Positions 30,578 through 64,000 of a DNA stretch of 64,000 nucleotides are shown here, piece by piece. Origin of the DNA: Selaginella tamariscina (lineage: Eukaryota; Streptophyta; Lycopodiopsida; Selaginellales; Selaginellaceae); contig PUQB01000145.1 of the NCBI GenBank assembly GCA_003024785.1, forward strand, positions 316,001-380,000, in the 5' to 3' direction. Each line of letters starts with the position of its first letter. Within the stretch, counting starts at the first letter, position 1. A program made the translations under genes and the position numbers. Under the pieces are notes generated by a model. It did no database searches and was not told where the DNA came from. It was given only the letters and a program-made list of their open reading frames with translations.

Positions 30578-31226
30578 TGTCACGACCTGATACAGGATAC
30601 AGGATACGACATACAGGATTCAGCCTACAGGATATTCGATACAGGATTCGGCCCGCAGGATATTCTCACAGGATATGCACAGGATATTCTCACAGGATAT
30701 GCCTACAGGATATTCCCGTAGGATATTCCTACAGGATATTCTCACAGGATATGCCAACAGGATATTCCCGTAGGATATTCCTACAGGATATTCCTATAGG
30801 ATAAGGATGACCATTTTTGGCTAGTGACTAGATTAGGCTCATGACCAGATTAGCTTGGAGTTGTGAGCATAAAAGCTCCGACCTAATTGTTGTATAATCA
30901 GTTATTATCAACACCAGTCATTCTACGATCATTCTTGTTCTTGTCTTGTTCGTGTCCAGCTCCTTGCCTCCTGCTCTTGTCTTGCTCTCGGATCCTATTC
31001 TGCTTCCGAATCCTATCCTGTTCCTGTCTTGTTCCTGGATCCTGTCCTGCACCTTCCTGTCTGGCTCCCGGATCCTATCATGTTCCTGTCTCTCCCGGAT
31101 CCTATTCGGTTCCAGTCTTGCTCCTGAGTTCCTAGTTCCTGTCCTGCTCTCTGTCCTGTTCCTGAGTCAAGCCTCCTTATTCTTGGAATCCTGCTCTTTT
31201 CATGGTGCCTGGATTATGGCTTGACA
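30578..31226 (+). repeat. 5' LTR of retrotransposon 3 with short internal repeats
   Basis: The U3 part (30595-30805) is built of ACAGGATATTC/GTAGGATATTC units. A CATAAAAGC TATA-like word lies near 30868. The 3' LTR has fewer of these units. Confidence 0.9.
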
Positions 31227-31859
31227 ATTTGATAGTAACTGCTTTCATAGCTCTCTGATTCCTAATTACTTTTTTCCTTGGTTTTCTTCTTTCGTTTTCC
31301 TCTTTTGTTTTTCTTTTCATAGATCATGGCCGATTTTGAACACTTTCAACGCGAGCACCAAATGTTGCTTCACGAGCTGGCCACTTTGCGCCAAGTGGTC
31401 ACAGATCTGCAAGGTTCCACCAACGCGGCGCATGCAGCTGCTGATGCATCCTCCAAGGCTGCTGCGCAGGCTCTCTCTCAAGCATCAATGGTTTCCTCTC
31501 CATCAAACTTTTCTTCGGAGCCGAAGATCAGCATGCCAAAAAGTTCAGTGGCAATCGCACCGATTTTCAAGGTTTCCTGAATCAGATCCGGCTCTTGATC
31601 CGCATGCAACCACGCCGCTACTCAACTGATGCACAAAAGGTTGGCCTTTTGGCATCCTTGCTAGTTGGATCTCCACGGGCTTGGGTTGCCCCTTTGCTGG
31701 AACGTGATGACCCATTGATAGAAGATTTTGAAGGATTCGTGGCTGCCTTTGAAGCCTGCTTTGGAGATCCCGATAAGTACCGTTCTACATGCACAAAGTT
31801 ACGGAGGCTCACACAAGGATCTAGACCAGCTTCCGTTTATGCATCCAAATTCCAGCAAT

Positions 31860-32134
31860 CATAGATTGACAAAATTGACTTAAACCATGACCTAGACCAC
31901 TAAAAAAACCATGATGGCTTAGATCAAAAAAATTTAACTCAATATATATAATGATTTTTGATGATCTTCAATTATATAAAATACATAAATTAAATCTTAT
32001 ATTCTTTAATATTATGAATATATAGTATTAATTTATTAATATATATATTAAATAATATATTTAACCCTATATTTTGGTTTTACTATTCATGAATAGTGAA
32101 ATCATGGTTTAAAATCAATTTTGACAATCGTTGT
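31860..32134. mobile_element. MITE inserted in the Gag region of retrotransposon 3
   Basis: This is about 275 bp of very AT-rich DNA in a GC-richer coding region. The ends GATTGACAAAATTGACTTAA and (complement of the right end) GATTGTCAAAATTGATTTTA are imperfect terminal inverted repeats, both running into AAACCATGA. CAGCAAT flanks it at 31853-31859 and 32135-32141, a 7-bp or slightly longer target duplication as in hAT or Mutator elements. No coding capacity. Confidence 0.88.
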
Positions 32135-35100: not shown

Positions 35101-36555
35101 TTTGGCAAGGAATGTGTTCTCACACATTAGTCCTGACATTGCAAGCTCCTCTTCCTCCAGTTCCCATTCAGACTACACGCTGTTTGCCATACAGGACGGA
35201 CTCATGTACCGGGAAGGTCTCCTGTACGTTCTGTTGGTGTTTGCAGGACTCGTGTGGTACAGGATTGTCATGATACCCGGCTACAGGACATTTTGGTGTG
35301 GCCAAGACAGTTGAGTTGGTGACTCGCAACTATTGGTGGCCTGGGTTGCGAGGTTTTGTGGAAAGGTTTGTACGGAGTTGTGACACCTGCAACAGGTCGA
35401 AGATGCCTCGTCATGCACCTCTGGTCTTCTTCGTCCTCTTCCTGTTCCTTCTGCTCCTTGGAGATCCATTTTTATGGATTTCCTCACAGATCTTCCTCCC
35501 TCGCGGATTTGATGCAGTTCTTGTGGTAGTTGACCGTTTCACCAAACAGGCTCATTTCCTACCATGTAAAAGACTGCTACAGGCCAGACAACTGCTAGTT
35601 GGTGATCCGCGAAGTGTTCCGACACCATGGTCTTCCTGAGAGCATTGTTTCTGATCGAGGTCCACAATTCATGTCCAAGTTTTGGCGAGAGCTTCTCTAA
35701 AGTTACAGGTTAAAGCGGATTTTTCTTCAGGATATCACCTGCAAACTGATGGGCAGTCAGAACGCACAATTCAGACCTTGGAGCAATATCTTCGCTGCTT
35801 CATCAGTTACCAACAGGATAATTGGTTGGACCTTCTTCCTATGGTGGAGTTTGCCTACAACAACTCCGTTCAGCATCTCTACAGGCCAGACACCTTTTTT
35901 CGCTCTTACAGGCTACCATCCACGTTTTGACTTTGCTCCTCCTACTTTTCCTTCTTCCGCTCCTGCAGTACAGGATCGTCTCTAGCACCTTCGTTAAGGT
36001 ACAGGATGATCTTGCGGGTTCATCTTCAGCAGGCACAGGAACGGTACAAGCATCATGCTGATGCCCATCGTCAGCCAGCACCTGCATACAAGATTGGGTG
36101 ATCTCGTGTGGCTTCTTCGTTGACATATTCGCACCAACATGGCCTTCTTCTAAGTTGGATTTTCAACATTGGGCCCTTAAAGATTGTGGCAGAAGTCAAT
36201 TTGTAGCTTTCCGACTCGAGTTACCATCTACAGTGAAAACTTTCATTCCTGTGTTTACACTTCTTTGTTGGAGCCGTATCATCCTTCTTCTCTTTCTGGT
36301 CGTGCTTCTTCTCCTCCCCCTCCTGTGGTCATTGATAGTGAACCTGAGTATGAAGTTGCAGCCATCCTTAATTCTCGTCTTCATCGCCGCCAACTTCAAT
36401 ACTTGGTGGATTGAAAGGTTATTTGCCTACCGATCGCACTTGGGAACCTGCATCCAACTTACTTCATGTTTCTTCCAAAGCTGCTGCTTTTCATCGGCAT
36501 TATCCAGCTAAACCAGGTCCCAAGACTTGTGGAACTCGTCCTTAGGAGGAGGTGC

Positions 36556-37152
36556 TGTCACGACCCGATATAGGATATAGGATACGACATACATGATTCA
36601 GCCTACAGGATATGCGATACAGGATTCGGCCCGCAGGATATTCCCACAGGATTGCCATAGGATATTCCCGCAGGACATTCTCACAGGATATGCCTACAAG
36701 ATATTCCCGCAGGATATTCCTATAGGATAAGGATGACCATTTTTGGCTAGTGACTAGATTAGGCTCATGACCAGATTAGCTTGGAGTTGTGAGCATAAAA
36801 GCTCCGACCTAATTGTTGTATAATCAGTTACTATCAACACCAGTCATTCTACAATCATTCTTGTTCTTGTCTTGTTCGTGTCTAGCTCCTTGCCTCTTGC
36901 TCTTGTCTTGCTCTCGAATCCTATTCTGCTTCCGAATCCTATCCTGTTCCTGTCTTGTTCCTGGATCCTGTCCTGCGCCTTCCTGTCTGGCTCCCGGATC
37001 CTATCCTGTTCCTGTCTCTCCCGGATCCTATCTGGTTCCAGTCTTGCTCCTGAGTTCCTAGTTCCTGTCCTGCTCTCTGTCCTGTTCCTGAGTTAAGCCT
37101 CCTTATTCTTGGAATCCTGCTCTTTTTCTGGTTCTTGGATCGTGGCTTGACA
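36556..37152 (+). repeat. 3' LTR of retrotransposon 3
   Basis: Pairs with 30578-31226. It has fewer copies of the AGGATATTC unit. Confidence 0.92.
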
Positions 37153-44614: not shown

Positions 44615-47600
44615 ATCACATGTTATACTACATATATATAGAATTGTACGTACGTGTATGTATATAAAAAGTACACTAATATCTTAAAGACCTGGTATTA
44701 AGGGGAAAACAAAACAAACACTAAAACATTAATATAACGGTTTAGTGTAAATTAATATATAAATATGTGTGTGTGTAAAGAGGTTTATATTGACAATATA
44801 TTAACATTTTTAAGTTTTAACCCACTTGGTTATATTTAATTACATATACCGCTTATATACCAACTTATATTGCTCTATGAATCTGAAATAGCATCTATGA
44901 AATTTATAGCAATCTCTATAATATAAATATATATATATATATAGACCAGTAAATAAATGCATCATAAACATTTATTAAGAGATGTTTATATATATACTAT
45001 ATATATGTGTGTGTGTGTTAAATGTTCACATGTATAATTTACATATACATTACCATATGCATATATACACACTAGGTTTTATAATTTCTGATCCGTTTCC
45101 TTAACCAGTTTTTCCTCCTTCTGTACCAACATTCTCCTCTTCCCATTACCAGTTCCAATTCCAGGACAATTGAACATTTTAATATTCTTCAAGGAAGGAA
45201 GAGTTTCAATGCAGTCTGGAAGACAAATTAGTTTAGGCAAATTCATCAATGTCATCTCTTTCAAGTTGACAAGGGAGCAGAATTGTGTGTGGTCCTCTAA
45301 TAGTGCTTCCAATTGTGGACAATCATAAATATGTAACTGCTTAAGACATGTGAGTAATGTGATAATAGATGGCAGATGTTTGAATGTGAAATTTTTAACT
45401 GCAAGATATTTAAGACTTAGAAATCCAATAGGATTTAGTCCTTCCCATACCAACGAGGACAAAGAACCTATTTCAAGCCGTCTTTCAATATGGATTTGTT
45501 CAATGAAATCCAACTGACTTAAACTCTTGCAGTCACAAATCCTTACATATTGCAATTCCTGTAAAATAAAATATTTTTACTTTCATAAAACTAATATATA
45601 AAGATGTAGCATGAGACTTGAAATATTCATGCATTTACATTACTATAATATGGTATACATTTTTAAATTTTGTTAGGAAATATTAAATTTTTATAAAACT
45701 TCATTCCATCGTGCATGAGTATAATAATGAGTATTAAAATAATTAAAACCTTCAAGTTATGCATGTAAGTGTAGTTATTTAATTCATATTTATATTGATT
45801 ATTTAAAAACTTAATTTAGTTCAAGTTATTTATGATATAGAATAACATTTCCGATATACATATGTATATGTGCCATAAACTACAAACATCATAAGTTTGA
45901 TATCAATAATATAGGTTTTCAATTCTTTAATCACATATCTTATGTTTAATGAAATTGAACTAACAAGGAAAAGCACATGTACGCTACATGCATATGTCAC
46001 TTACAAAGAGAACAGTTACTATTACATTACAAGTGCAATACCAAATGTTGATACTTTCTTAATAAAATTCTTATAATTATGTTCAACACGTATTCATTTA
46101 AACAAAAATTATATTAATTATCCGGTAGTTTCATTCATTACTTAAGATATAAGCAACCTAGCCCAACATATGTATATAATTAGATTTACCTTGACTTGAA
46201 TTTGTAACAACTGGTCGCAACATAATATATGTAATATCGGTGGACCCTTGGATATCTGAATAAAATTAAGTTTTCACAGTATTATGAAAATGTTTTACTT
46301 TAAAGTTATCTTGTATACTTAAAAGTAGGTTATATAGTTATGAGTATATTTGAGTGTATTTGCTTTATCGGCTATACACATAATATCCTCATCTATGTAT
46401 ATATATACACACACGTGTGTACCTGCTGGAGAGTAAGTACTTCAAGTTGGTGGCAGTGTGAAATAGTTAGAACCTCCAATTTTGGAAAAGCCCCGTGTTC
46501 ACTAAATGATTCAGGAAAATGCTTTCCTGAGAACTCAGACAAAGTCAACCGCTTTAAGTTGGACAACTTGTTTATAGCAGGAAGTTCCAATAGAGTTCCA
46601 CCTCCGTTTAAAGTTAATCGCTCGAGATGATGAAGTGATTCGAAACCATTTGGAAGGTACTTTGATGCAGTATTAAGCTGTAAAGTTACCAAAGATGGGA
46701 AGTTTATCTCTAATGGAACCTCTTTGAACCGAACTGTGCCGAGCTCTAAGATACGTAGTTTTTGAGTGCCATTGAGTAACCACGCAAACTTTTGTGGATC
46801 AGCTTCAACTGTTTCAAATTTTGTTGAAATATAGAATCGTTGTTTATAGTCTCCCAAAGATACTACCTCTAATGAACTCTTGAAAGTTGGATTATTCAAA
46901 TCTAAGGGACCACTTGTTAACCTTAAAACTTGTAAACGATTCATTTTTTCAATGTATTGTGAATTTCTCACTGGATGAATCCTCCTCGAAATGATATGCA
47001 AGCAATTCAGCCTGTACATACATACACTCCTGACGAGTAAAAAATGGCAACGATGATGAGCAATATCCTATCTAAACATTGTATATGTATTGCATGGATG
47101 TATATCCCGTGAAACTCTATATACTACATATGCATATACTATTAAGCCGTGGCGATACATGGTGATGGATGTATGCGTGGTACATTAATACATATATAGA
47201 GTATAATACCTGTCCATGTTTTTCAGAAACCTGAAATCCAGATGAGCACCACTGTCACATTCTCCAAAACAATGTATTTGAAGAACCTCCAACTGATGAA
47301 GTCTGCCAAGCCCTTCAAGCAGATTCTCATAAGAGCACCAGCAACTAAGATAAGGAGTAAGTGCTAAGTATCTTAACTGCACAAGGAGCTCCAATCCACA
47401 AATTGTTATGAACTGCCCACTCAACCATAAAAACTTCAGGTTGGAAAAGCTTTCCAAAGAGATATGCATTGGCTCCCACAGACGCAGCTGCATCACGGAC
47501 AAGCGAGGCATTTCATTCGACAGAATATCTGATACCTTTTCACCTTTCATGTCTCCTGTGTATCCATGAATCACCTCCACTCCTGACGTCCGACCGCTAC

Positions 47601-50335
47601 AACTGCGAAGTCTGACGTATGGATGTTTGTCTGTTTTGATGATATATTCGGCTAGCTCAAGCATCAATTGACTACTACGAACATTATCTTTCTCAGCTAA
47701 AGATGCATCTTCCAGTGATTTCCGTGCAGATAAAAATTCCCTGTGGTAATAATCATCATGTTCATACGAGCTTAACACCAGCCACCAGTAATAGAGCGGA
47801 TGTCTAACATCGGTTGATTTTATTAAAGTGACAATATGGTTGTAACTGGCTTCCATAGCAATGCACAGGAAAAGCACCTTCTCATCATTGCTTAAGTGGT
47901 CGTAACTCAGCTTTAGCACCTTAAATATCTTTTCGTGCTCATCACATTTTCCCCTCCTGATCTTTTCCAGAACATGTTCCCAATAAGTAGGAGAATACAA
48001 ATACCCAGAGTCCTTAGACATGTACCTAGCCATGATTTCCAACACTTTTGGATTTCCATAGCATTGTTGAACCATTAACCCAACATGATATCTGATATCC
48101 TCAGGAGCCTCTTCTTTCCCAAAGGCATGCAGGCAGAAGAGTGTGCGAGCATCTCCATGTGATAAAGGATTCACCTCTAGTTTTGCGATTCTATTCCTTG
48201 AGAATTGATCGAGCACGTTTGCCTTATGACTAGTGACCAGTTTCCTAACACCTTTGATGTCCACTGCCCTCAAAAATATCTGGGTTGCACACATTCTCTA
48301 GTACAATAAGAGTCACCTTATTGGAAGTTCGATTTGCAAAGGTCTGGATTGATTGCGTGCCCTCTCCTACATTTGTAATCTACAGAGCCATCAATGATCA
48401 GCATTAATATACATGTTAATATATATATGTATGGTACATACCTTTGAATGCCCAGGGAGCATCCGCAATTGAGAACAAATGTCCATCACCATTGATACCT
48501 CGTCCTTGCCTCGGCCAACTTCGAGATATGCAATACAACCAAAGAGTTGTCTCACCTCCTGCATCTGGAAAACGTATTGAACCAAATGCGTTTTTCCCAC
48601 TCCGCTCTTCCCATGTATAAGAATCCATTCCGGTCCGTGTTCATCGGCAAGCAGAGATTTCAGGGCGGAGATATACGACTCCCTTGGAACTATAGGTTTC
48701 CGCACGTCAAGCGTTGGTACCAAATAGTGACTGTGCTTATCTTTCACCAGGGCTCTCACTGCAACCAGATCAGCTTCAACTCGCTCCTTGCAGGCCAGAA
48801 TCTTTCTGGATTTCAACCCTCTGAAACATCCAACAACGTTGTGCGTGCGTGTGTGTGTTAGAGTTAGCAAACTCACCTGTTATACAAAGTGTAGTTTTGA
48901 CGTCCATCTATGGTGGCCACCATTAGCTCCTCCGAATCATGTATGAACTTTTTCAACATGTTGTATTCATCAGAGCGAGGATGGAAGTCTTCCATGCGGT
49001 TTGCCACCTCAGGCAAAAGACGAAGGCAATCAGAGGCATTCACGCCAGTAATAATGCTTTTCAGCTCCCATCCATTCTTTACAAAGTGGCATGCTGGAAG
49101 GATTAGAGCCGCAATTGCACCCTTCAGCGGCTCACCAATCACCGGTCCAAGCACGGCCCCGATCGATCCAGATGCAAGTGAAGTATGATCCCGGTCAACC
49201 ATGGCGATAGAATTTAATTAACTACAAATCATAATTAATAATCTCTCCCACACACACGCATTGTTAATATGACAATATTACACTCACAAGAGTTTATTTA
49301 CCTGTTGTAAATTTCCCCCACCACTCTCCTAGTCAAGTTCTAGCCAAACCTGTTAAAAGCTACATTATTCGTATTAACGGTTATAAATGTTTATGTTTAA
49401 ATTTTTTAAATAATTGTAAACAATAAATTGAAATTATACAAAAATATATTATTAAATTTTTTATATTATTAATAAAATTATATTATAGTTATATTATATT
49501 ATTATATAATATATTATTAAATTTTTTGTTATCAAATTGAATATAAACTATTAAAAGTATTAGTAATAAGTAATTAAAATTTAAATTAATTAATTAGTAA
49601 ATGTTAAAAAAATGTATTTAAAAAAAATTATATGTACCAAATCATATATATAGATGAAATGTGTTCATCCTGAAGGTCTTTTTAATTATATCTTCTAAAT
49701 GTAACTAACTTAATTAATTATGATTAAAAGGGGGGCTGGATTATGAGGTGTTTATATAGCAAGAAGTTGTAATTCAGGTGATTTTTTTTTATTCTTTATG
49801 TAGAAGTATATATGTGTTTGTATGTATGGCACAATAGCTTTACCTGCAGTACATGCTATACATAGATGTATTTGTAGATCTACCATCTACACACTAAAAC
49901 AAGTGATATACGTCGCTACACATGTATATACATAAGTCTGTAAATGCATAGTCATGTGAATTCTCTCTCTGGATACCTGTGTGTCCAAGCCTCTCGTAAG
50001 CCAGGGTTTGATTGAGCAGCAATGCTCTTCTAACATAGTCACATTGATAGACCGCGTGTAAAATTATCAACCGTACACGTGGCTGATTTTGTACAATATT
50101 TAAGTATACTTTCGTCAAATCCGTGTCTGTGTATATTCCATGTGTACGGACTCCCGTGTATGGGACTCCAATGGATTATTAAATCCAGTTAGGTGCACTT
50201 CTGGTTTTTATATGTTTACAACATAAATTTTGGTTTTAAATCCTTAAATCTCTTATTTTTTAAAAGTATTTATATTTATAAACTTGTATGTGAAACTAAA
50301 ATATATTATATTTATTTAGTCTTATCTTTTCTAAT
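44615..50335. repeat. Duplicated block C (NLR copy plus both flanks)
   Basis: The left flank matches block B (from about 9870). The gene and about 1.1 kb upstream match block A almost base for base near the start codon (for example AACCATGGCGATAGAATTTA in both). Homology stops near 50335. Confidence 0.85.
45079..49202 (-). CDS. NB-ARC/LRR immune receptor (NLR), copy C, nearly intact
   Basis: Six exons with consistent phases and GT/AG borders: 48877-49202, 48442-48820, 47210-48379, 46423-47011, 46190-46255 and 45079-45558, about 1,002 residues. Residues about 10-100 form a helical, RPW8-like N-terminus. GKSGVGKT (P-loop) is at about 179-186, kinase-2-like TLIVLENV near 258-265 (Glu where Asp is usual), then VRKLVTSHKA, GLPL-like CYGNPKVLEIMA and FLCIAM. 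No clear MHD motif is seen. LRRs fill the rest; the 66-bp exon 5 encodes a single LRR. Such proteins are cytosolic pathogen sensors. One extra A in the A-run at 48272-48276 breaks the frame relative to copy A, so it is either a fresh pseudogene or an assembly error. The start is conserved in copy A. Confidence 0.85.
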
Positions 50336-51946
50336 TTATTTCGATTTCATTAATTGTGTTTAATTTGTGTTTTTCTTTAAAAATTAGTGAGTTATTAAAT
50401 ATTTTTATTTTACTATTCTATGTCCATTTTGTTTGAATATAATTTTATAAAAGACACATCATATTACAAACATGGAAATTTTATTTGGAAAATAGAACTT
50501 ATTTTTTTATTATGACACACAAGATGTCCATATATTTAATGTAAATTAATTCTGAAAATGATTTAAAACCATAATGTGAACTTTAATTAAATTGATTACT
50601 ATTAAGAAAAAAAATAATGAGTTTATGTTTTCCCATTTTAATCTTAAGAGCCGCAAGTGTTGAATTAAGAAAAATGAAGATTTTAATTTTTTAAAGGTAT
50701 TAAAAAGGATGATATTTTCCATTATGATTGAAAAAATATTTCTCCTCATTAAGCTTAATTTGATCAGAAATTATAAATGCACATATTTTGGCCTTAAAAT
50801 TTTATATAGTGTAGTTTAATAGGTGGAAAACAAGAATATTCTTTGAACTTTTAATTTCATTTTTAATTATCTACTTCACAATGGTAGTGTTGTAATAATG
50901 TTTTTGAATTGTGTATAATTTTATAATAATAGAATATTACAATTGTGTTTTCATGCACATAATCGTGTTTATAATAAGGTCAAATGTGGAGAAGATAGTG
51001 GTGACTAAATTGAATTCATGCTTAAGTTAGTTGTTGCACAATGCAATTGTGTCAAGTCTTAATAATTCACTTTTTTAATGGTTTTTATTATTTAAAAAGT
51101 TTTTAACTAACCCTAGTCATCCTCAATCACTAGTCAAGTTAAAGTAGTAAGTTTTGTAGTTCATAAAGTAATAAATTTTCTTGTTCATAATTTGAGTTAA
51201 ATGGCATCTTAACAATATTGTTTATTGTCATAGCCACATACATATATATTATGATTTTGCCTCAATATTTAAAATCAATTCTATATATACCATTTTATTT
51301 AAGTCTTTAATTTCATAATAATTCTTAAGGTATACAATCTAAGAAAAAGGCTCTAAATTTTACTTTTACATATGAAAGTTCTATATGAAAAATGATAAAT
51401 AGGATATCATTATAGGGTATCGTTGATGCTCACTTATCATAATAGAGTGGTAAAAACAACACATCAACTATTGTAAGTTAAAAATAATCACCCTATTGTC
51501 AAGTCTCTGTCTTTAAGTTAATATAACTTATGAAAATACTTAAATTTTTTATATAAATTTGTTTCGCACTCACCTTTCAAAAATCCCTTAAAAGTGTATC
51601 ACTTAAGTATTTTTCCATTGGCACTAACTTTTTGTTTAACATAATCTTTTATGTTATATGCACGTTGTAACTAAAGTGGGCATGATACGTGAAAATGGGA
51701 AATATAAAATAAATTACTAATTAATACTTAAGTTTTAATTATTAATTAATCATTTAATTAATATGTAATTAAGCCTTAAATATTAATTAATTAATTAATT
51801 AATCCTTCAATAACCTTACTTAGTAAGGAATATTCCTAAAATATCTTAGAATATTCATATTATTCTAAAAATAGTTTACAATAATGAAGAAATACTATCA
51901 AACATAATTACAAATGAAATCATTTTCTTATCAACATGTTAATTTT
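50336..51946. other. AT-rich spacer with a dispersed repeat
   Basis: No gene is visible. About 51505-51655 matches 25010-25165. ATTAATTAATTAATTAATTAAT lies near 51785. Confidence 0.55.
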
Positions 51947-53204
51947 TTATAAATACTTTCTTTCTATCATACAAAGAAATCTTTTCATTTTGTCTAAATC
52001 ATCACTCTCCGGATTAATCAAATCATTTTGGTCAATATCTTGATGTTGTTGCCACCACTTAACACTCTCACGAATGCAATTGGGAGTTGCCATCCTTGTT
52101 AATACATAAGATGTGATAAGAGAAGGTCTGCATAAAGGCTCATCTAAAAACTGACGTTCCTTAAGAATAATATTATAAAGCGCCCGGTTGCTATCCTTCA
52201 TTTTATAAAATTCAATATCACGAGAAAGAAAAGCTTCAGGAAATGTATGATACGGTGGATACTGCTCACAAAAATTTTCGAGATTCTTCTTTCTGAGGCA
52301 CGTATCCAAGTAGTTCACTAGCTCATCCATGATATCGGTATCAGAATATGGATCGAAAGTGATTGGATGAATACAAGCAATGTTTTGGTTGAGCATAGCC
52401 TTCTGAGGAGAGTCGTCTACTACTAAGATATGTGCATTCTTCGTTATCCTTAAGCGACTGATCTCCCCATGAGTCCCAATTATTCTTTCATTCTTGAAGA
52501 AGTATGGCTTGCTTTCCTTTCTTATATTGTGAAATTCGAGAGGTTTATGACACATTCGCTGGTCAAAAATCCAATCTTTACGAATCACCTCTTCTGCAAC
52601 ACTACAATGTTTCTTAAGTAAATTCAACAGCGGTGTTAAGTTATGAATCTGCATGCATGACCAAATCCCCACAAGCGCACCCATCTCCTTAAGCTTTTGA
52701 AAGAGACGATCCAACCCTGGACGAAAAATAATATCATATCGAAATTTACCATGACAAGGAATGAAATCTCCTTGTTTGATTTCTTTTTTCTATCCTGGGC
52801 CTTTGTCGATGAAGCAGAACACCATTGACATCCAACAACACAATATGGCCATGAGTAACATGAGATAGCGTTGCCTCTTGAATACTTTGCAAATCACTTG
52901 TTTGCTCCCTTTCACATTTATCCGTTGCCACTATCTCGTTGCCTATCCCTTCATCATTTAATTGTACATCATCCTTACAAGATTCAGATATTGCATGCGC
53001 TGAAGAAATTGATTTCGGAACTGAAGCCAATAAAAATGATGATGAAGTGGCCCCCATGGTAACGATGTTTTGAGCTGCATTATTATCCATTTCCTGCATG
53101 AACTCTGTCATTCTGACATGTGGCACAAGAAATTGTCGCCAAACCCCTCTCTTACCTCATGCAATGCTGAAAATCCATGTTCTCAATTATTTCATTACAT
53201 CTGC
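51947..53204 (-). pseudogene. FCP1/NIF-type HAD phosphatase-like gene, one frame break
   Basis: A Ser/Glu-rich N-terminal part (ATG at 53126, a possible upstream exon to 53204) leads into VLLDVNGVLLH, the position of HAD motif I. Here the usual DxD is D-x-N, as in several plant FCP1-like proteins, which casts doubt on catalysis. Next come RPGLDRLFQKLKEMGALVG, IWSC, WIFDQRMCHKP and ILVVDDSPQKAM (motif III DDS), then a helical C-terminus to the stop at 51947. Active FCP1/SCP enzymes dephosphorylate RNA polymerase II CTD serines in the nucleus. An extra base in the T-run at 52784-52789 separates the two open parts (52746-53126 and 51947-52714). It could be a sequencing error, in which case the gene is intact. 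It lies about 180 bp downstream of the ParB/methyltransferase gene on the same strand. Confidence 0.78.
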
Positions 53205-53382: not shown

Positions 53383-55889
53383 TCAATTCATTATCAATTC
53401 TTCTTCGCTATTACCTTCTGAGTGAGGCGAAGAAGGTCTAAGCCGCTTGTGAGATGGTTCAAGATCTTCTGCATCTTCTATTGATGTTTCCATGGGTCCT
53501 GGAGTGTGCGAATGTTCTGTACTCCTCGAGATAACTTCCGGTCTAATATCTGATTGAAGTTCGTTCTCAGACTCCGAGATTGAACCAGATTCACCTTCAG
53601 AGCTATCGCACTTATCTGGAGGGAACTTTCTCAAATACGCCTTTATGGATTCGTTGGGGTACTCAGTTGAGACCCAATCTATCCACTTGTTCAGGTCCTC
53701 AACCATGGTCTTATCCTTTTCAACGGCAAACACACATGTATGCCGAAGGTAACACTCCTTCAAGACGGACCCCCTAGTGCAGTAGTCAAAAACCCACGCA
53801 TCACTGTGAGGACCCCTAATCAAGTTGACGATGCTCCGTGCCGCTTGACTTGTAATGTTTGGATAACGTACATTGCCGAATACGTCACTCATACCTATCG
53901 GTGTATCGGATGGAGGTTCAGGGCCGTTGGAGTGCAAACAGATGCCTGGCCAGTCATTTGGAAGCTTGAAATTGTTTGGCGCATTCCTAACAACCAAGTG
54001 AACAACGGTATCAATGCACTTGGGATTAGCATCGTTCATATAAAATCCTGTCCAACGATGTCTATTCTTCTTGGCGGCGAAGGCGAAGGCAAAAGTATCG
54101 GTGACATGAGCAAGAATCAAGAAATAAATACCTGAAAAAGTAGGTATCAGTGAAGAGCGCAAGCATGAATTCAATAATAAATACCTTCTATGTATATGCT
54201 TGCACGGCTAAGTTTCTCCACCAGATCCTCTAGTGCCCTATCTGTCGAAAGATTTTTTGACACCCGCCGATCCATCACGAACAATTGAAACGGTTTCCTA
54301 CAAGCAGTGATGTTACCCCATAAAGTCTCCGAATCTAACAACAAACATCTGTAGGGCTTGTCGTGATTCGTAGCATCCTCCTTTATAAGGTTCAATTCGG
54401 TTCTCCGCTGCTGAAGGACTGCCATAAGAGAAGGCGTCATCCCAATGTTCTCCTTTTTGGCGTTGGCGTGCAATAGATTCTTGCCTAGATCTTCCGATTG
54501 GTTCACCCATTCGACAAGCATATCATCGTTCGTCACATGCAAATATTTGCTGACCTCTTCATATGTTGAAGTCGAGGTCCAACCCAGTTTGTGGCAGTGT
54601 ATTCCCAACCACTCCTTGAAATGCCTGACCGTCTTCAACTCCATTGCCTTGAGATGAAAAGGAGAGGTTGGGCTGCTGTTATTAATTTGTAGTTTGCCAT
54701 CGATCACCAAATCAGCCAAGACTTCCATCTCCTCCATCGTTGTTCCATTTAAAGGCTTCAACCATGTGAGCTTGAAATCGTTGTCTACATCCTTTGTAGA
54801 TTGAACAGACTTAGCCTTCGGCGTCTTACTGGGTTTCTTTGCAGACTTTTCTGAGGGCTCCCCTTCACTTGTCTGCTTCTTCTTCAGTGTTCCTTTTGAA
54901 AAGGATTCCATAATCCCCAACCATTTGGCAAAGATCCTATCTTCGGGGCAAGAAATCAACATCATCAGAAAGGATGTTTCCTTCCCGCCCACCTGGGCAA
55001 AATCAACTGCTGCAATTTCTTCAACTCTCTGAGGAAAAAGACAGATTAATATACCGGCGAGATAAATCCCGCCCAAACAATTTGCTTACCCGGTATTCCG
55101 CAGATTGTGTATTCCCTGCGGTAGCTCTTTGTGGTCGCTGAAGAGATTCCCACACGGCTCGCGTGTGTTTAAACTTCTCCCATATTTTGCTGTTGTAGTG
55201 GTTGTGTGTCGGCAGCGTCCCATTCCGCCGATAACTTATGGTACTGCTCGATTGTGAGATTCGGCTTAGCTAAAAACGCCGATCTTTTTGTCAGCTTCTC
55301 ACGGGTATGCTCGGAAAGTTTTGTTGCCATCGTTCCTTTGTTGTGTTCATCGAGAAGTCGTTGGGCTGCCGTTATTGTGTGCTGGCCACTAATGATGTAG
55401 TACTTGATAGATTTTTATTCTCCGTCTGAATCTTCATGAGTTGTTCTGGTGTTGTGATCCAGACTTTGTCAGCGCCTTCCTTCTTTCATAGTATGGACAC
55501 AAAACAGCATTATGTGGAACGGTATAAGAATTGTCGTCCTTCATCTTCTCCATGAGCTCAGCTACACGTTCCTGGTTGAGTGGCCTGTAATTGAAGTTTG
55601 GGTTGACGCTGCAATATTTAACCCTACAAGGATAAATCTTATCATCCAACATCATTTCCTTGTGACTTATTGCAGCATGAGATGCCACAGGTGCAGCTGA
55701 CAAAACGATTGATGATTTTCTTTTGCGATCCGAATCAACATGTGTGATCCCCGACTGCAGCTGTTCTAGTGTTCTCGGCACACTCTTCCAGCTCCCAAAG
55801 CTCCTAAGCAAATTGAACGTGATCTGTAGAGAACCTGAGACCGAGCCACCCTCTCAATCTCCTTATGATGTCGCTGTGTTCTTCTTCAA
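53383..55889 (-). pseudogene. ParB-like domain plus degenerate N4/N6 DNA-methyltransferase-like gene
   Basis: The N-terminal ParB/Srx-type part has VNPNFNYRPLNQERVAEL near 55560-55620 and YYIISGQHTITAAQRLL near 55360-55412. A basic Ser/Lys linker follows (about 54780-54890). The C-terminal half follows the order of beta-class amino-methyltransferases. FQLFVMDRR (about 54265-54290) stands where vdliftDPPY is expected. An IYFLILAH strand follows, then RYPNITSQAARSIVNLI. AWVFDYCTRGSVLKEC...FAVEKD (about 53720-53800) stands where lDPFxGSGTT and vEkd are expected. Both catalytic motifs are degenerate, suggesting loss of methylation. Short introns lie at 54132-54184 and 55029-55089; the second contains a palindrome like those of the nearby arrays. 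The ParB part has several frame changes. ParB-methylase fusions are known in bacteria and phages, so transfer is possible. The tail is acidic and Ser-rich. Confidence 0.65.
55054..55073. repeat. Stray palindrome copy inside an intron
   Basis: CCGGCGAGATAAATCCCGCC lies within the 61-bp intron 55029-55089. An identical 20-bp variant occurs in array 1 near 58120. It is the only copy I saw outside the arrays. Confidence 0.85.
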
Positions 55890-55899
55890 TGTGAAGAGG

Positions 55900-56523
55900 G
55901 AAGATTGCTCCACTTGCTGATTTTCTGTATTGTGAAGCAATATCTCCTGACAATACACCTACTCGATGAGTCTGAAGATTTCGAAGTAGACATCCAGATG
56001 GATCCCCTCCATAGATGGGCTTTCGTTGAGTTGAAGAAGAACTCCAAGGTCAACATCATTAGTGAACACGTGAACGTCATTATCCACAAGTCGACAAAAC
56101 CACCCGAAATTAATGTTGTAACTGACGACCTCTGGATCCGAGAACGTGACATTGGATGGAACAAGGCATATGTCGAGCATCGTCCAATCTGGGTTCGCAG
56201 CCTGCTTTCGGGTGCTTGACTAGCGAATCTACTTTCCATTGTTTTGCTTGTCCATGAGATGTGACAGAGGTTAATTTGACAGCACCATGGTTGCTCCAAT
56301 GCGCTTCCCATTTATCTTAAAATATGGCCAAGTTGATTCCAGAATCCCCCTGCCCATCTCTTCTCCTGCTCTTGTCTTTAATGTCACCTCAATTCCACAT
56401 CTGAATACAAAAATGATTAGTTCAAGTATCCGAGTATAACAGATTTTATTTTAATTCTTACCCAGAATTTGACGACGACTCCATACTAATGACTCGATCT
56501 CCTTGTTTGATCAAATCGTCCTT
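55900..56523 (-). pseudogene. Upstream beta-rich module, probably 5' part of the ParB/methyltransferase gene
   Basis: Exon 56462-56523 reads DLIKQGDRVISMESSSNSG, with a good acceptor (TTTTGCAG) and donor (GTAAGA). The next exon starts at 56400 (CGIEVTLKTRAGEEMGRGIL, then YFKINGKRIG). The pattern (GD..., then GRGILE, then a strand ending in a basic and Gly pair) resembles the beta-rich modules of the right-edge gene, and loosely the DUF8039 type found in CACTA-associated plant proteins. After this the reading frame changes at least once, with open stretches 55959-56180 and about 55812-55950. Whether this is one gene with the downstream ParB part is not certain. Confidence 0.5.
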
Positions 56524-56821: not shown

Positions 56822-58396
56822 TGCGGCGGGATTAATCTCGCCACCCCTTCAATGCCTCCTGAAAGAGTGGGCGGGATTAATCTCGCCACCTTTCTGGAGG
56901 CCTTGAACGGGAGTGCGGAATTAATCTTGCCACCCTTCTCGGTCTCAGAGAGAACTGGGCAGGATTTATTTCTCACACCCCTTCAGTGACTCCAGAAAGG
57001 GAGGCGGGATTAATCTCGCCCACCATGTAAGGATGGTTAAATGAATTTCCCACCCTTCCCAATCCCATTGGTATGTTGAAAACCTTCTACGTCTCAGACA
57101 GAAACGTTTGGGATTGGTCCGACTCACCAATGGAGAAAAAAGGAAGGGTGGGATTCATTCCTCCAACAGGCATTGAAGACTCGGCGGGATTAATCCCGCC
57201 GCCCAGGGCCTTCACTCGGTCCCTATGCGGCGGGATTAATCCCGCCGGACGCCAATTCCCTGCGCGGAATCGGGCGGGATTAATCCCGCCGCCTAGGCAC
57301 TTCAGCAGGCCAATGGCGGCGGGATAAATCCCGCCCGATTCCCGCAGGGAATTGGCGTCCGGCGGGATTAATCCGCCTCCCAGGCCCTTCACTCGGGCCT
57401 TAGTCGGCGGGATTAATCCCGCCGAACGCCAATGCCCTGTGCGAAATCTTGCGGGATTAATCCCGCCGCCTAGGCCCTTCAGGCAGGCCAATGGCGGCGG
57501 GATAAATCCCGCCCGATTCCGCGCAGGGCATGCGTACGCGGCGGGATTAATCCCGCCCACCATGTAAGGGATGGTGAAATTAATCCCACCACCCTTCTCA
57601 GTTCCCTCCATTGGTATTTTGTAAACCTTCTCCGTCTCAGACAGAGTTAGTCGGGATTGATTCAACATACCAATGGAAGGATTAATCCCGCCACCGGGCA
57701 ATGAAGGTTCGGAGAGACTAATCCCGCCGCCCTCTCGTAAATCATGCGCTCACATATATATTGGCTGCGGCATTTTGAACAGGGATGGGTGGGGGCGGGA
57801 TTAATCCGCCGCTTATATCCTGCGGAAGTGCCTGAGCGGCGGGATTAATCCCGCCGCCCTCCGCGAAGGGCATGAGCGTGGGGCGGATTAATCCCGCCGT
57901 TCATGTCCTGCGTGAATTCCCTGGCGGCGGGATTAATCCCGCCGCCTTACGCGCAGGACATGTCATGCAGGCTCTTCGGTTAGCCTTCCGTGCAGGATCT
58001 TTCATGCAGGCTCTTCGGTTAGCCTCATGAGCGGCGGGATTAATCCCGCCATCCCCTGTAAATGCCCTGCGCGGAATCCCGGGATTAATCCCGCCATTAG
58101 GGCCTTCACACAGGCCATTGCCGGCGAGATAAATCCCGCCGCATTCCGCGCAGGGCATGGGTGAGCGGCGGGATTAATCCCGCCGCCGAGGCCCCTCACG
58201 CAGGCCATGGGCGGCGGGATTAATCCCGCCGCTCTTCGGTTTGTCCTAGAGCGGCGGGATTAATCCCGCCGCCCATAGCCTGCGTGAAGGGCCCTGGCGG
58301 GATTAATCCCGCCGCCATGGCCCAACCATATAGCGGCGGATTAATCCCGCCGCCGAGGCCATAAACCTATAGCGGCGGGATTAATCCCGCCGCTCG
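56822..58396. repeat. Array 1 of the 18-bp palindrome GGCGGGATTAATCCCGCC
   Basis: About 32 sites, of which I count 13 exact; the rest differ by one or a few bases (for example GATAAATC in the core or one missing C). Most neighbours are 36-50 bp apart, with a few wider gaps. Spacers share words such as AGGCCCTTCA, GCAGGCCATGG and CCCTGCGCGGAAT. Sites at the left end (56.82-57.17 kb) are more diverged and the right end is cleanest. Because the motif is open in all frames, spurious long open frames rich in GGINPA/AGLIPP occur on both strands. Confidence 0.95.
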
Positions 58397-58419
58397 AGGG
58401 GCTTAGCGTGTGTGCGAGA

Positions 58420-58470
58420 GATAAAATTAATAAATAAAAAAATTATACAGATAAAAACACACACATATAT

Positions 58471-58527
<57 letters not shown>

Positions 58528-59245
58528 GTATGTATAGGAGTGTACGTGTGTGTGCAAGAGATAGATAAATAAATAAAATTATACAGTACTGGTACACATA
58601 ATATATGTGTGTACATAGGTATATATGTGTGTATATGTATATCGTGTGTATGCGTGTGAGCGAAACAAATAAAATCATACAGATAAACAAACACACACAC
58701 ACACATATATATACACAGGAGTGTGCATGTGTGTGCGAAAGATAAAACTAATAAATAAATAAAATTATACAGATAAACACACACATATATATGTGTGTAT
58801 ATAGATATAGAGAGTCTGTGAATATATAAGCATATATATAAACTAGTGTTGTATACTATTTGTTAATATGTATTGATATATATATATATATATGTAAAGC
58901 AGTGTGCGTGTGTGTGGGAGAGATAGATCAATAAAAAAAATTATATAGATACTGGTACACATAATATATGTATATATGTATATAGGTATATATATATGTG
59001 TATATGTATATTGTGTGTATGCGTGTGTGAGCGAAACAAATAAAATCATACAGATAAACAAACACACACACACACATATATATACACAGGAGTGTGCGTG
59101 TGTGTGCGAGAGATAAAACTAATAAATAAATAAAATTATACAGATAAACACACACATATATATATGTGTGTATATATATAACCCATATGAATATATAAGC
59201 ATATATATAAACTAGTGTTGTATACTATTGTTAATATGCATTGAT

Positions 59246-59289
<44 letters not shown>

Positions 59290-59551
59290 GCAGTGTGCGT
59301 GTGTGTGGGAGAGATAGATCAATAAAAAAATTTATAGATACTGTACACATAATATATGTATGTATATATGTATATAGGTATATATATATATGTGTATATG
59401 TATATCGTGTGTATGCGTGTGTGAGCGAAACAAATAAAATCATACAGATAAACAAACACACACCCACACACACATATACATACACAGGAGTGTGTGTGTG
59501 TGCGAGAGATAAAACTAATAAATAAAATTATACGCACACTCCTATACATAT

Positions 59552-59584
<33 letters not shown>

Positions 59585-59590
59585 CATCTC
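58420..59590. repeat. Microsatellite-rich tandem repeat, about three units
   Basis: A complex unit of roughly 370 bp recurs near 58540, 58905 and 59300. It contains GAGAGATAGATCAATAAA, ACTGGTACACATAATATATG, GTGAGCGAAACAAATAAAAT, CATACAGATAAACAAACACA and CA/TG/TA runs. Long open frames here are artefacts of the simple repeats. Confidence 0.85.
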
Positions 59591-60660
59591 ACCTGTGTGC
59601 ACAGCCGCCGCCTCTTGAAACCCTAAGAATATACCTAAACCCTTAACCCTAATAGAATATTCCTTCTGAGAATATACTTAAACCCTAAAAAGAAAAAATA
59701 TAGATTCGCCCTAAACGAATATTCTTTCATTATATTATTAGCGCGTGCGTGTGCGTGGGTGTATCACATACACCCCAAAAATATAAATCATGCAGGGATT
59801 TAACATGTGTGTGTCCATGAGAGTGTTAAAGTTTCATGTGTATCAATACAATATACACATTGCATATATTAATACACATAATATATACATACACACGTGT
59901 ATACACACAGATACATACATATTACATGGTTTAGGGTTTAGGGTTTAGGGTTTTGGATTTAGGATGGATCATGCATGGTGTGTATGTATGAGAGAAGAGA
60001 GAGTGTTGAAAAAATTATTTTTGTACACATTGCATATATTAGTACACATATATACTTACACATATTATACACAGATATACATACATAGTATATGAGAGAA
60101 GAGAGACAGTACATATTATGGATCATGCATGATGTGTATTATACACACAGACATACATACATATTAGTACATAATATTTGAAAGACCGAGTACATATATA
60201 GATCATGCATGGTGTGTATGTTTGAGAGAAGAGACACAGTACATATTAACATGATCATGCATGGTGTGTATGTATGAGAGAAGACAGAAAGTACACATAT
60301 ACATACAGAGTACACATATATACATACACAGTGTATACACACAGACATACATACATATTACATGAGTAAATTCATTGTGTTACATATTAGGGTTTAGGGT
60401 TTAGGGTTTAGGATGGATCATGCATGGTGTGAAGAGAGAGTGTTGAAAAATTATTTTTGTACACACATGTATACACAGGGTTTAGGGTTTAGGGTTTAGG
60501 GTTTGCTCCCAACAAGCTTAATATAAATATTACACATATAAATTCAATGTGTTACATACACATATTGAGTACATATATCATACATGCGCATTGAACATGA
60601 TGTTTTTAATAAAGAAGCAACATATTTCTTCAGTTTGGTTTAGGGTTGTGCATGTGTGTG
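59591..60660. repeat. Interstitial TTTAGGG blocks and a recurrent GATCATGCATG repeat
   Basis: TTTAGGG runs of about 3-4 units lie at 59930-59952, 60389-60412 and 60480-60506, with degenerate CCCTAA words near 59620-59680. GGATCATGCATGGTGTGTATG or a variant followed by AGAGAAGAGA recurs near 59964, 60119, 60200, 60250 and 60414. No gene. Confidence 0.85.
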
Positions 60661-60740
60661 CATATGTGTTTTTGTAAGTTCTTGTAATGCGTGTGTAAAT
60701 TTATGATTGTGTTTATATATGTGTGCAAAACAAACATCGA

Positions 60741-61500
60741 ATAATTAAGAAAATAATATTAATAAACACACTATGAACATATTTTAAATTATACATAATA
60801 ATATATGATTTTATCTAATATATAGCCATATATAGTTTTAATAATATATATTAATTTAATATTGATAAAAAGGTTTAACATTGAAATATTCTTGAAATAA
60901 TAAGAAATTAATTGAGAAAATCCCATTAATATATACAAATGTAAATTAAGTACTCAAATAATTAATTAAATTAATTATCATAATCATGTTTAATATTGGA
61001 ATATTCTTGGAATAATAAGAAAATAATAAAGAATATCCCATTAATATAAAGAAGATTAATTACTCAAGTAATTAAGGAAATGATATTAATATACACACTA
61101 TGAAATATTTTAAATTATACATAATAATACATCATTTTATCTAATATATAGTCATATATAGTTTTAATAATATATATTAATTTAATATTGATAATAGGAA
61201 TATTCTTGAAATAATAACAAATTAATTGAGAAAATCCCATTAATATATACAAATGTAGAATAATTACTGCAATAATTAAGAACAAGACTAATTTAATTAT
61301 GATAATCAGGTTTAATATTAGAATATTCTTCAAATATTAATAAATAATAAAGAATATCCCATTGATACTAGGAAATGAAAATTAAATACTCGAGTAATTA
61401 AGAAATAATAATAATAAATAGACTATGAATATATTTTAAATGATACATAATAATATATCAATTTATTTATTGTATAAGTATATATTTATATATATATAAT
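60741..61500. repeat. AT-rich tandem repeat of about 328 bp, about 2.3 copies
   Basis: Units begin near 60743, 61071 and 61397 with ATTAAGRAAATAATAT followed by an ACTATGAA-like word. They share ATACATAATAATA, TATAGTTTTAATAATATATA and GAATATTCTTGAAATAATAA. No coding content. Confidence 0.8.
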
Positions 61501-61737
61501 ATAAATATACTTGAATACTAAGAATGTAGAATATAGTCTAAAATTTCGTAATATTAAACAGCTTGAATCACTTGAATAACATTAAATGCAATTTTAAAAT
61601 ACTCATTGGAACTGGAGAGTATATATGTCAGAGTGTCGGATATTTGTGTCAACTCATCTTAAATTTTATTTTCTGTTCTTTTTAAAAAATTTGAATTTCT
61701 GACATATGTATTGTCGGTCTGACATGTAAATTTAAAA

Positions 61738-61916
61738 ATGTATTTAATTTCCCACTCAAATTCAGATCTGGTTCTTTCTCCGGCAAGGGTTTCTTCATTT
61801 CTGTATTTTTCACTCTTTAAATCTTCTTTTTTCTTCATAGTGATCATCTCAGGAGCGAGATTAAATTGGGTGCTATTCTTTATAGGAAAGCACGGCGCCT
61901 TCAGTGATGTTTACAA
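61738..61916 (+). other. Possible 5' exon of the right-edge gene
   Basis: The stretch is less AT-rich, open, and ends at a good donor (TTTACAA followed by GTAAGTATT). The next good acceptor in the right orientation is TTTATGTGCAG at 62947, just before the right-edge coding frame. If spliced this way, palindrome array 2 lies in the intron. This is inferred from splice signals only. Confidence 0.35.
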
Positions 61917-62085
61917 GTAAGTATTATAAACAAATTTAAAAATACTTATAAAGATTCACTCTCTTACATTCTCTTTTAAAATTACAATTTAGGGGTTTAG
62001 GAATGCATTAGGATTATAATATATTCGTTAGGGATTTATCCCGTTTAAATATCCTTTTAACTTAATATTCTAGGTTAACCGGGGC

Positions 62086-62815
62086 CGGGATTAATCCGGC
62101 CATTTCTTTTTCGCCTCTTCGAAGAGGTGGCGGGATTAATCCCGCCACCATCTCTCGGCAATGCTTCTCCGCCACTGAAAAAGAGTGGCGGGATTAATCC
62201 CGCCGATAACCTTCTCAACTGATGAAGAATTACTAGAATTTATTAGAAAGAGTTGTCGACGGGATTAATCCCGCCAACCATTTTAGGAGGTAGGGAAGGG
62301 GTGGCGGATTAATCTCGCCACCACATCCCTGTTTTAAGGATTTGGGGACAGGATTTATCCCAGATCTCTTTGAAATCATAGTTTTGGAGAGAGTTATGTG
62401 CGGGTTTAATCCCGCCATTCATTCCCCGTCGTAAGAATTGTGGGCGGGATTAATCCCGCCCTGGACTCCCTCCGACAAGAAAGAGCCGGCGGGATTAATC
62501 CCGCCGCCTCTTCCTCCTCGGGGGAGTCCAAGGCGGGATTAATCCCGCCGACTCTCTCCGACGAGGAAGGGAGTCCGGCGGGATTAATCCCGCCGACTCA
62601 TCCTGCCGGAGAGAGTCGGCGGGATTAATCCCGCCTTGGACTCCCCCGAGGAGGAAGAGGCGGCGGGATTAATCCCGCCGGCTCTTCCTTGTCGGAGGGA
62701 GTCCAAGGCGGGATTAATCCCGCCGATTCTCTCCGAAGGGGTTGAGTCGGCGGGATTAATCCCGCCGACCGTTCCTCGTCGGGGGATTCGTGGGCGGGAT
62801 TAATCCGCCCATCAG
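62086..62815. repeat. Array 2 of the 18-bp palindrome GGCGGGATTAATCCCGCC
   Basis: About 16 sites, about 10 exact, mostly 40-56 bp apart (41-46 bp in the clean right half). Spacers differ from those of array 1 and contain GGGAGTCC, CTCCGAC and GAGGAAG words. Site quality is poor at about 62258-62420 and best at 62440-62770. Confidence 0.95.
62461..62705. repeat. Long inverted repeat within array 2
   Basis: Arms of about 100 bp (62461-62560 and 62607-62705) are near-perfect inverted complements. For example, CTGGACTCCCTCCGAC at the left pairs with GTCGGAGGGAGTCCA at the right. The central loop of about 46 bp contains one more palindrome. Confidence 0.88.
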
Positions 62816-62953: not shown

Positions 62954-64000
62954 ATGTTTAATACTGGAGATAAAGCATGTCTTCTTCGGAACAACAAGAT
63001 AGTTGGCACTGGAACTGTGGAAGTTCGAGATAATAATGCATCATGTCACAATATTGCCCAAGGATCTTGTGTGTACGTATGGGTGAACACCATTTACAAG
63101 CATGTTAAGGTTCTGGGAATGGAATTTGAGGAGGGTTCTCCTGTATTGTGGAATTTGGATGAAGTCAAGGCTGACACAGAATATGCAGAGTCACAAACAA
63201 ATAGTAGCACGAGTTTACCAGATGATGGCTTGCCTGCTGTGATGGATGAGGTGATTCTCTTTCTTCGTGAGATTGAAGTCGGAAGAGGCATCATCACAGC
63301 TATAAATCCAATGGAAGCAGTGTCAGAAGAGAAACTAGGGTCCGACTTCGTGGGTGTAGTTGTGACAGAGGTTTCACCTAATGGCACATTGTATCCTGGA
63401 TCCCTCGTGAGGTGGCGAACATCTGAATTAAGACGGCAAGATGGTTCAACATATTCTGGGTTGCATTTCAATAATAACAACCCGGAAGAACAACTCATAT
63501 TTGAAGAGGTTCCTTGCATTGGTCCTATTGTAAGAAAAAGGCGATTCATGGGTTGTAGATCTTCCCCTGCAAGTTTCAGCAAGAGGGTAAAGATGGATCC
63601 TACATCTTCCGAAAGTGTTACGAGCATTTCCACGATTGACTGTTGCAAGAAGAAGTGTTGTCAGATGGCAAACCGGAATGAAATTACCCAATGTAGACAT
63701 GTCTTTCGTATGCTCACCCAAAAGCAAAGGCATGAGTTTGTATATGCTGCACTAACTGGGTGTATTGATGGAATAGCCTCGGACACAGGTTATCAGAGTA
63801 CATCCATGGTATTTAATAAGGTGGCCATCTGCTTCAAAGCTTGGTACAGTATATACGGGATCCCAAAGACCACGTTCTACCGTCGAAGGGATGAGTGGCT
63901 AGATGGAGCGCGAACCTCAGTACATGGGAACACTCGCTTGGTCAAAACCCGCTCTCACATCATGGCAGCCATAGAGATACTCAAGGCTTTTGTGGAAGCA
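62954..64000 (+). CDS. Transposase-like protein with two beta-rich modules, partial (runs off the edge)
   Basis: This frame is open for 349 codons from ATG 62954, which follows an acceptor at 62947, and has no stop before the edge. Residues about 7-75 (GDKACLLRN, VGTGTVEV, VYVWVNTI, SPVLWNLDEVK) and about 105-165 (VGRGIITAINP, FVGVVVTEVSP, GSLVRWRTSELRR) look like two copies of one beta-rich module, loosely DUF8039-like. A basic stretch (VRKRR) follows, then a Cys cluster CCKKKCC at about 230-236 with a later C and H, and a helical part with AICFKAWYSIYGIPKTTFYR at about 291-310. The CC...C plus 'ICxxAFxxIyGIsxxtfyR' pattern recurs in uncharacterised, probably transposon-derived proteins that continue into an RNase H-like domain, which would lie beyond the window. 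Function is inferred. Confidence 0.7.
   Translation, partial: MFNTGDKACLLRNNKIVGTGTVEVRDNNASCHNIAQGSCVYVWVNTIYKHVKVLGMEFEEGSPVLWNLDEVKADTEYAESQTNSSTSLPDDGLPAVMDEVILFLREIEVGRGIITAINPMEAVSEEKLGSDFVGVVVTEVSPNGTLYPGSLVRWRTSELRRQDGSTYSGLHFNNNNPEEQLIFEEVPCIGPIVRKRRFMGCRSSPASFSKRVKMDPTSSESVTSISTIDCCKKKCCQMANRNEITQCRHVFRMLTQKQRHEFVYAALTGCIDGIASDTGYQSTSMVFNKVAICFKAWYSIYGIPKTTFYRRRDEWLDGARTSVHGNTRLVKTRSHIMAAIEILKAFVEA

Follow-up and report, generated by a model that had tools for sequence, protein, structure and literature searches.

Sequence-specific self-defence by transposons is known from very few cases. One is provided by the VANDALs, which are Mutator-type elements. The anti-silencing protein VANC is encoded by such an element and binds short motifs in members of the same transposon family; the motifs form tandem arrays in introns and between genes, and methylation is lost there (PMC5735166, and see PMC10398659). 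Arrays of short palindromes are also found in the oriP family of repeats of Epstein-Barr virus (EBV), in which each of 20 tandem 30-bp units carries an 18-bp palindrome and which acts in segregation and transcriptional activation; tandem 18-bp palindromes can therefore form a transcription-activating platform (PMC3820569). Here we describe a locus of Selaginella tamariscina, contained in positions 316,001 to 380,000 of contig PUQB01000145.1 (assembly GCA_003024785.1; the whole stretch of 64,000 nucleotides is called the window), in which two arrays of an 18-bp palindrome, the two divergent genes beside them and a third gene are all parts of one DNA transposon of about 15 kb with terminal inverted repeats (TIRs).

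By analogy, VANC is the closest precedent for the role that these arrays may have. As in VANDAL21/Hiun, a short motif is densely repeated in noncoding DNA and introns, extra genes accompany the transposase, and tandem duplication makes the arrays differ from copy to copy (PMC5735166); the Selaginella arrays are intergenic, with one further intronic site, and those sampled lie in element copies. With the sites of the EBV protein EBNA1 they share the tandem 18-bp palindromes, to which a transcription-activating function belongs in the virus (PMC3820569), but those sites have a 30-bp period, are bound by unrelated proteins and belong to an episomal virus.

Results

The 18-mer GGCGGGATTAATCCCGCC, a palindrome with the half-site GGCGGGA/TCCCGCC and an ATTAAT centre, has 42 matches in the window at up to 3 mismatches, against a maximum of 0 in 100 shuffles. 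Array 1 (56,825–58,391) holds 27 of them, mostly at a spacing of about 45 bp, and array 2 (62,084–62,810), in which the spacers alternate in orientation, holds 14; neither array is assigned a strand. The remaining match stands alone at 55,056. When the threshold is raised to 6 mismatches the arrays count 32 and 16 palindromes, which reproduces the approximate numbers of the initial annotation, and 8 scattered single matches appear elsewhere in the window. That annotation had also placed the arrays between divergent genes sharing a beta-rich module and had described spacers that differ from one array to the other around a palindrome kept in both, all of which we confirm. The proximal site of array 1 lies about 340 bp upstream of the ATG (56,484) of the minus-strand gene, and the ATG of the plus-strand gene (62,954) lies 144 bp to the right of array 2, which may fall within an intron of the 5' untranslated region of that gene, with a possible donor near 61,917 and an acceptor at 62,947.

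In the window copy all array sites are outside coding sequence. The lone palindrome (55,056–55,073, no strand assigned) is diverged at 2 positions and sits in one of the introns of the minus-strand gene, which is 61 bp long and has GT-AG borders; the window copy shares this site unchanged with six further copies. Long open reading frames (ORFs) cross the arrays on both strands, yet the spacings keep no 3-base phase (57/48/45 of 150), and we rejected the arrays as coding sequence.

The element runs from 51,658 to about 66,689, its right end lying beyond the window (C444:382,689). BLAST homology between this region and the fetched loci begins at 51,653–51,662 and stops at 66,686–66,694 in either orientation, as read from the copies that reach those points, among the loci around the 18-mer hits on contig C1 and the continuation of the window. 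From these shared boundaries and the aligned ends, the left TIR, ATGCACGTTGTAACTAAAGTGGGCATG, was placed at 51,658–51,684 on the plus strand; the right TIR, ATGCAAGTTGTAACTAAAATGGGCATG, is its mirror copy, the repeat is 26 bp long and the termini read ATGCA...TGCAT. A genome search for the TIR that allowed 2 mismatches gave 2,007 + 1,921 = 3,928 ends, and none for the reversed control, hence about 2,000 elements. As a rough upper estimate, if all copies were full length, the family would make up near a tenth of the genome.

The 100 exact TIRs listed include 23 adjacent inward-facing pairs within 40 kb, six of which are longer than the rest and are probably nested or mixed. After the five pairs above 20 kb were left out, the flanks of the remaining 18 were read in the register ATGCA...TGCAT: a 4-bp target duplication is exact in 10 pairs, one of them within an AT repeat, and absent in 8, and the other three registers tried gave matches of at least 4 bp in 1, 0 and 1 of the 18. 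The flanks of the window copy, TTAT and CTAT, agree at three of four bases. In the copy on C470, which has no duplication, the right end runs directly into another copy, so chimeras exist, whether true or arising from assembly. Left TIRs were also seen in pairs about 250 bp apart (C80:563,732 and 563,981; C1:2,394,829 and 2,395,079), one pair in tandem and the other facing away, which suggests terminal duplications or closely neighbouring insertions.

The initial annotation had allowed for transposon use of the palindrome, and the shared boundaries, TIRs and 4-bp duplications bear this out; its parallel with CACTA (En/Spm) elements does not hold. CACTA elements have the termini CACTA..., target duplications of 2–3 bp and subterminal iterated sites, and here the termini are ATGCA, the duplication is 4 bp, and the distance to the element end is about 5.2 kb for array 1 and 3.9 kb for array 2. 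What the two share is iterated short sites of binding type, such as the TnpA repeats, and a weak similarity of the module region to PF03017 (TNP1/EN/SPM), which scores 12.4 bits where the cut-off is 21; they differ in termini, in the length of the target duplication, in the domain of the transposase and in where the arrays lie.

In En/Spm, TnpA binds the subterminal repeats to build a synaptic complex, and the present arrays might likewise be sites needed in cis for mobility, bound by the putative plus-strand transposase or by the minus-strand protein as an accessory. Size is in keeping with this, as among the first 100 exact TIRs listed 15 of the 17 adjacent inward-facing pairs under 15.5 kb measure 13.8–15.0 kb, with 10.2 and 11.9 kb for the remaining pairs, and so is the fact that the sole deletion derivative found without arrays (L031) is a single copy in the genome. 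Short derivatives with mutated TIRs would escape detection, however, and the arrays, at 3.9–5.2 kb from the ends, are positioned by the genes rather than by the TIRs, within whose 26 bp no half-site can be read. We consider a role in transposition itself unlikely.

A likely placement, from its published description, is the Sola superfamily, for which 4-bp target duplications, a DDD transposase, TIRs of 11–1124 bp, lengths of 2–9 kb with some above 15 kb, and presence in moss are reported (PMC10741241), a Physcomitrella Sola1 being listed in PMC9033089. The element matches in its 4-bp duplication (10 of 18 pairs), its conserved DDD-like residues, its 26-bp TIR, which is in the reported range, and its large size of 13.8–15.0 kb; the Physcomitrium patens protein P0050, from a moss, is a DUF7869 homologue of its putative transposase. 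It differs in its internal palindrome arrays and in the minus-strand and phosphatase genes described below, features not mentioned for Sola in the consulted part of PMC10741241.

Genome-wide, the exact 18-mer occurs 27,128 times (300,702,823 bp in 1,391 contigs; reversed control 0). Locations were taken from the first 100 listed, all on C1; they fall in 12 fetched loci, every one of which also holds element-matching DNA. The array region separates the minus-strand gene from the plus-strand gene, which encodes a DUF7869 protein, with one array 5' of each. This arrangement is present in all eight copies fetched on both sides (the window; C1 at about 4k, 797k, 901k, 920k, 1,804k and 2,072k; C470), where array 1 has 11–27 sites and array 2 has 12–16. 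Among eight DUF7869 loci on other contigs, seven carry an upstream array, which in six adjoins the gene as array 2; the seventh, L032, has lost array 2 and the 5' part of the gene and retains array-1-type repeats, and the eighth is the internally deleted L031, without arrays. An older copy (L023), 77–78% alike over stretches of the minus-strand gene, keeps 16 sites, 4 of them exact. The link between arrays and genes that the initial annotation proposed thus held in these samples, and its overall interpretation stands as to the transposon, the divergent-gene setting and the kept palindrome, and falls as to the family.

An ordinary satellite was rejected: all sampled arrays lie in element copies, and none independent of the gene-bearing element was seen. 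Bacterial and archaeal contigs scanned for two adjacent 18-mers gave none, and the lone 18-mer on one viral contig reads like a terminator hairpin.

The palindrome is sharply bounded. Across 395 sites collected from the window and loci L009–L036 at up to 3 mismatches, of which 173 are exact, information content is 1.38–1.97 bits per base within the 18-mer and 0.04–0.47 in the 12 bases flanking each side; the ATTAAT centre is no less constant than the GC arms. The inter-site spacing has a mean of 44.1 and a mode of 45 (280 spacings of 30–60 bp), with moderate coherence (0.50) with the 10.5-bp helical repeat. In 27 arrays there are 539 exact 8-bp half-sites, an exact palindrome being scored as two; a perfect mirror partner stands at the exact spacing in 362 of them and a partner with up to 2 mismatches in 508, and a control window 22 bp further out (right half-sites only) held a partner in 0 of 261.

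These pairs bear on host control. The half-site GGCGGGA/TCCCGCC is one base off the plant E2F consensus, and the arrays could be sites of this host cell-cycle factor that put the element genes under S-phase control. A single E2F site, however, needs no mirror partner, the half-sites here occur almost only as exact mirror pairs, and the constancy of the centre matches that of the arms or exceeds it, so E2F control seems to us quite unlikely.

Within arrays, the sites picked by similarity (up to 4 mismatches) are 88% alike in array 1 and 95% in array 2. For spacers the values are 50% and 59%, and shuffling them gives 43%. The spacers recur in inverted form, in array 2 between adjacent spacers and in array 1 at every second one. 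Between copies, in alignments of tandem arrays that favour matched palindromes, sites differ at 77/2340 bases (3.3%) and spacers at 380/4456 (8.5%) in array 1, and at 48/1918 (2.5%) and 328/3104 (10.6%) in array 2; sites were the less different in 17 of 17 alignments. CpG transitions amount to 1.9% in sites and 2.6–3.8% elsewhere in the element, a difference too small to build on, and CpG decay was set aside as an explanation.

The arrays might still have no function and be a self-copying satellite, or a product of palindrome-driven mutation, carried in the element. Such an origin would agree with the range of 11–27 sites in array 1, as in tandem arrays that expand by recombination, and with a rate of site change close to that of the rest of the element. 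It agrees poorly with the sharp fall of information at the palindrome border, with the presence of both arrays in all eight two-sided copies and with the confinement of sampled arrays to the element, and we hold it to be very improbable.

Between the arrays lies an AT-rich intergenic core (58,392–62,083, no strand assigned; 3.7 kb, GC 0.27), in which ORF reading recognised no gene. It contains microsatellites, repeats of the TTTAGGG type and a tandem repeat of 326 bp. A second iterated motif, GATCATGCATG, is present there in 5 copies and the telomere-like TTTAGGG in 10 (58,400–62,080). With an AT-rich core between two arrays of possible dimer sites, the layout recalls the latent origin of EBV, whose family of repeats likewise consists of tandem 18-bp palindromes with segregation and transcriptional activation as functions (PMC3820569), and the arrays could be origin- or segregation-like iterons. 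No replication protein was recognised among the three genes of the element, however, and it is not evident why a TIR element in a chromosome would need an origin; an iteron role is accordingly a very slight prospect.

The plus-strand gene, of which the N-terminal part lies in the window (62,954–64,000), runs on to about 66,183 and has one 54-bp intron as read from the sequence. It matches DUF7869 (PF25273) with E=2.8e-12 for exon 1 (copy L022, C1:2,070k) and E=1e-26 for exon 2 (window copy). A protein search found 134 homologues of the DUF7869 region, of which at least 120 were listed, with Physcomitrium, Riccia, molluscs, coral, sponge and Chromera among the sources; the N-terminal 363 amino acids found no homologue in such a search. 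Acidic residues are strongly conserved among 60 aligned homologues (P0001 numbering: D195 59/59, D192 57/59, D353 59/60, D395 60/60), D353 within a QxDN motif and D395 within GHTHxDxD. A profile search of PDB sequences gave no match. The protein looks like a putative DDD transposase.

Within the genome, DUF7869 gave 4,249 candidates at first look, 150 of which were scored. With the moss protein P0050, for which 46 of 5,178 candidates were scored, there were 53 matches, many with a 1,053-residue frame whose one internal TAA is located in the intron; a second, divergent DUF7869 family that might have a palindrome of its own was not clearly seen among the 53, the upstream DNA having been read for C470 only. 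The window copy carries a duplication of about 106 bp around an N in the transposase gene (L009 about 1,690–1,900; window about 64,690–64,900) that the other compared copies lack and that is probably an assembly fault.

The minus-strand gene (53,383–56,484) has introns, read from the sequence, at 56,461–56,401, 55,089–55,029 and 54,184–54,132. Its product starts with the beta-rich module common to the plus-strand protein (BLASTP E=7e-5, 12/37 identical), followed by stretches that by eye resemble ParB/Srx (ISGQHTITAAQRLL) and a DNA methyltransferase (VFDYCTRGSVLKECY). Partition of the ParB/parS kind was considered on this ground and rejected, as Pfam, PHROGs and PDB gave nothing convincing, and the two resemblances are no more than a lead. 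There was no Pfam match up to E=10, which includes the VANC domain (DUF1985/DUF287), and no convincing PHROG or PDB sequence match; no homologue was scored among 4,857 candidates from 5.8 billion proteins, in a search that finds only relatives sharing exact words. We therefore call it an orphan protein.

An in-frame ORF of 304 amino acids in this gene (54,171–55,085) is 100% identical in 130 of 130 copies scored, of 5,760 candidates, and further upstream a 478-residue frame is common (150 scored of 5,301 candidates). Because of these two observations we conclude that the family has amplified recently and that intact copies exist. In eight aligned copies the frames of the gene are broken by short deletions, mostly of 1–2 bases, many private and some shared, which look like long-read assembly error.

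Between this gene and the left element end is a gene for a NIF/FCP1-like HAD phosphatase (51,947–53,156, minus strand), present in the window copy as two overlapping ORFs, with a match to PF03031 (51,947–52,789) at E=4.1e-9 and at E=3.1e-10 in another copy. Its motif I reads by eye as DVNG, not DxDx, and the enzyme may be catalytically altered.

Other parts of the window hold further features. Positions 30,575–37,050 contain a degraded retrotransposon of the long terminal repeat type, whose direct repeats, about 6 kb apart and 85–93% alike, enclose ORFs for an aspartyl protease and a reverse transcriptase; the repeats carry ACAGGATATT motifs iterated with a 13-bp period, making this another transposable element with an iterated motif. 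Retrotransposon fragments with reverse transcriptase and integrase domains (19,328–22,321) and an NB-ARC/LRR resistance-type gene in pieces (45,079–49,217) lie on the minus strand. At positions 1–755 a 325-bp unit is repeated 2.3 times with 97% matches, and a plus-strand frame of 306 amino acids (128–1,048) has no Pfam match.

Discussion

We suggest, tentatively and at somewhat short of an even chance, that the arrays are a promoter or anti-silencing platform bound by a dimer that the element itself encodes, for which we can name a candidate protein. Each palindrome would be the site of a protein dimer with two-fold symmetry, which the element most likely encodes, namely the orphan product of the minus-strand gene or the beta-rich module that it shares with the transposase. 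Many such dimers at a spacing of about 45 bp would mark the family specifically, and once loaded would keep the two divergent promoters transcribed and unsilenced, with continued amplification as the outcome. At a symmetric site the orientation of a unit would be irrelevant, and for this reason, we propose, units could be inverted and duplicated with only the palindrome kept. The retained symmetry, the indifference to orientation, the noncoding 5' placement and the confinement to one family in our samples are what would be expected of an element's own dimer sites. We infer all three steps: that the palindrome is a dimer site, that the dimer is a protein of the element, and that its binding affects expression.

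Several observations weigh against this proposal. No DNA-binding domain can be recognised in the orphan protein, for which no relatives were found, and it is tied to the palindrome by position only. Essentially one element family was sampled, which bears on any co-evolution of protein and sites. The motif of VANC21 has 9 bases, is not palindromic and occurs in one orientation (PMC5735166), unlike the sites described here. Picking sites by similarity favours the palindromes in the within-array comparison, and the gap between sites and spacers across copies is partly an effect of aligning tandem arrays. Finally, site change, at about 2% of bases, is similar in rate to the 1.9–2.8% of the element genes, so that the sites are not slower. 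Because of this alignment bias and of the agreement between site and gene rates, a fair statement is that unit turnover scrambles the spacers and the palindrome persists.

In the literature searched, from which subscription papers and Repbase reports were mostly absent, neither the 18-mer nor its 16-mer or 12-mer core was found, nor any mention of DUF7869. For iterated palindromes in transposons, for E2F sites within them and for palindrome-bearing transposons of Selaginella, the consulted parts of the literature held no comparable case.

A bolder extension, which we regard as doubtful, is recognition of the family by itself: the orphan protein would dimerise on the 27,128 palindromes over about 2,000 copies and protect or activate all of them at once. 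If true, a plant that is probably not a flowering plant would have an independent counterpart of VANC that works on palindromes, and to our knowledge none has been described for this transposon group. The element would also provide a context for DUF7869, which is widespread in eukaryotes, has no known function and looks like a DDD transposase. Candidate sites, a candidate protein and about 2,000 copies, many nearly identical, are brought together in one genome, which makes the idea of an element-encoded activator or anti-silencer directly testable.

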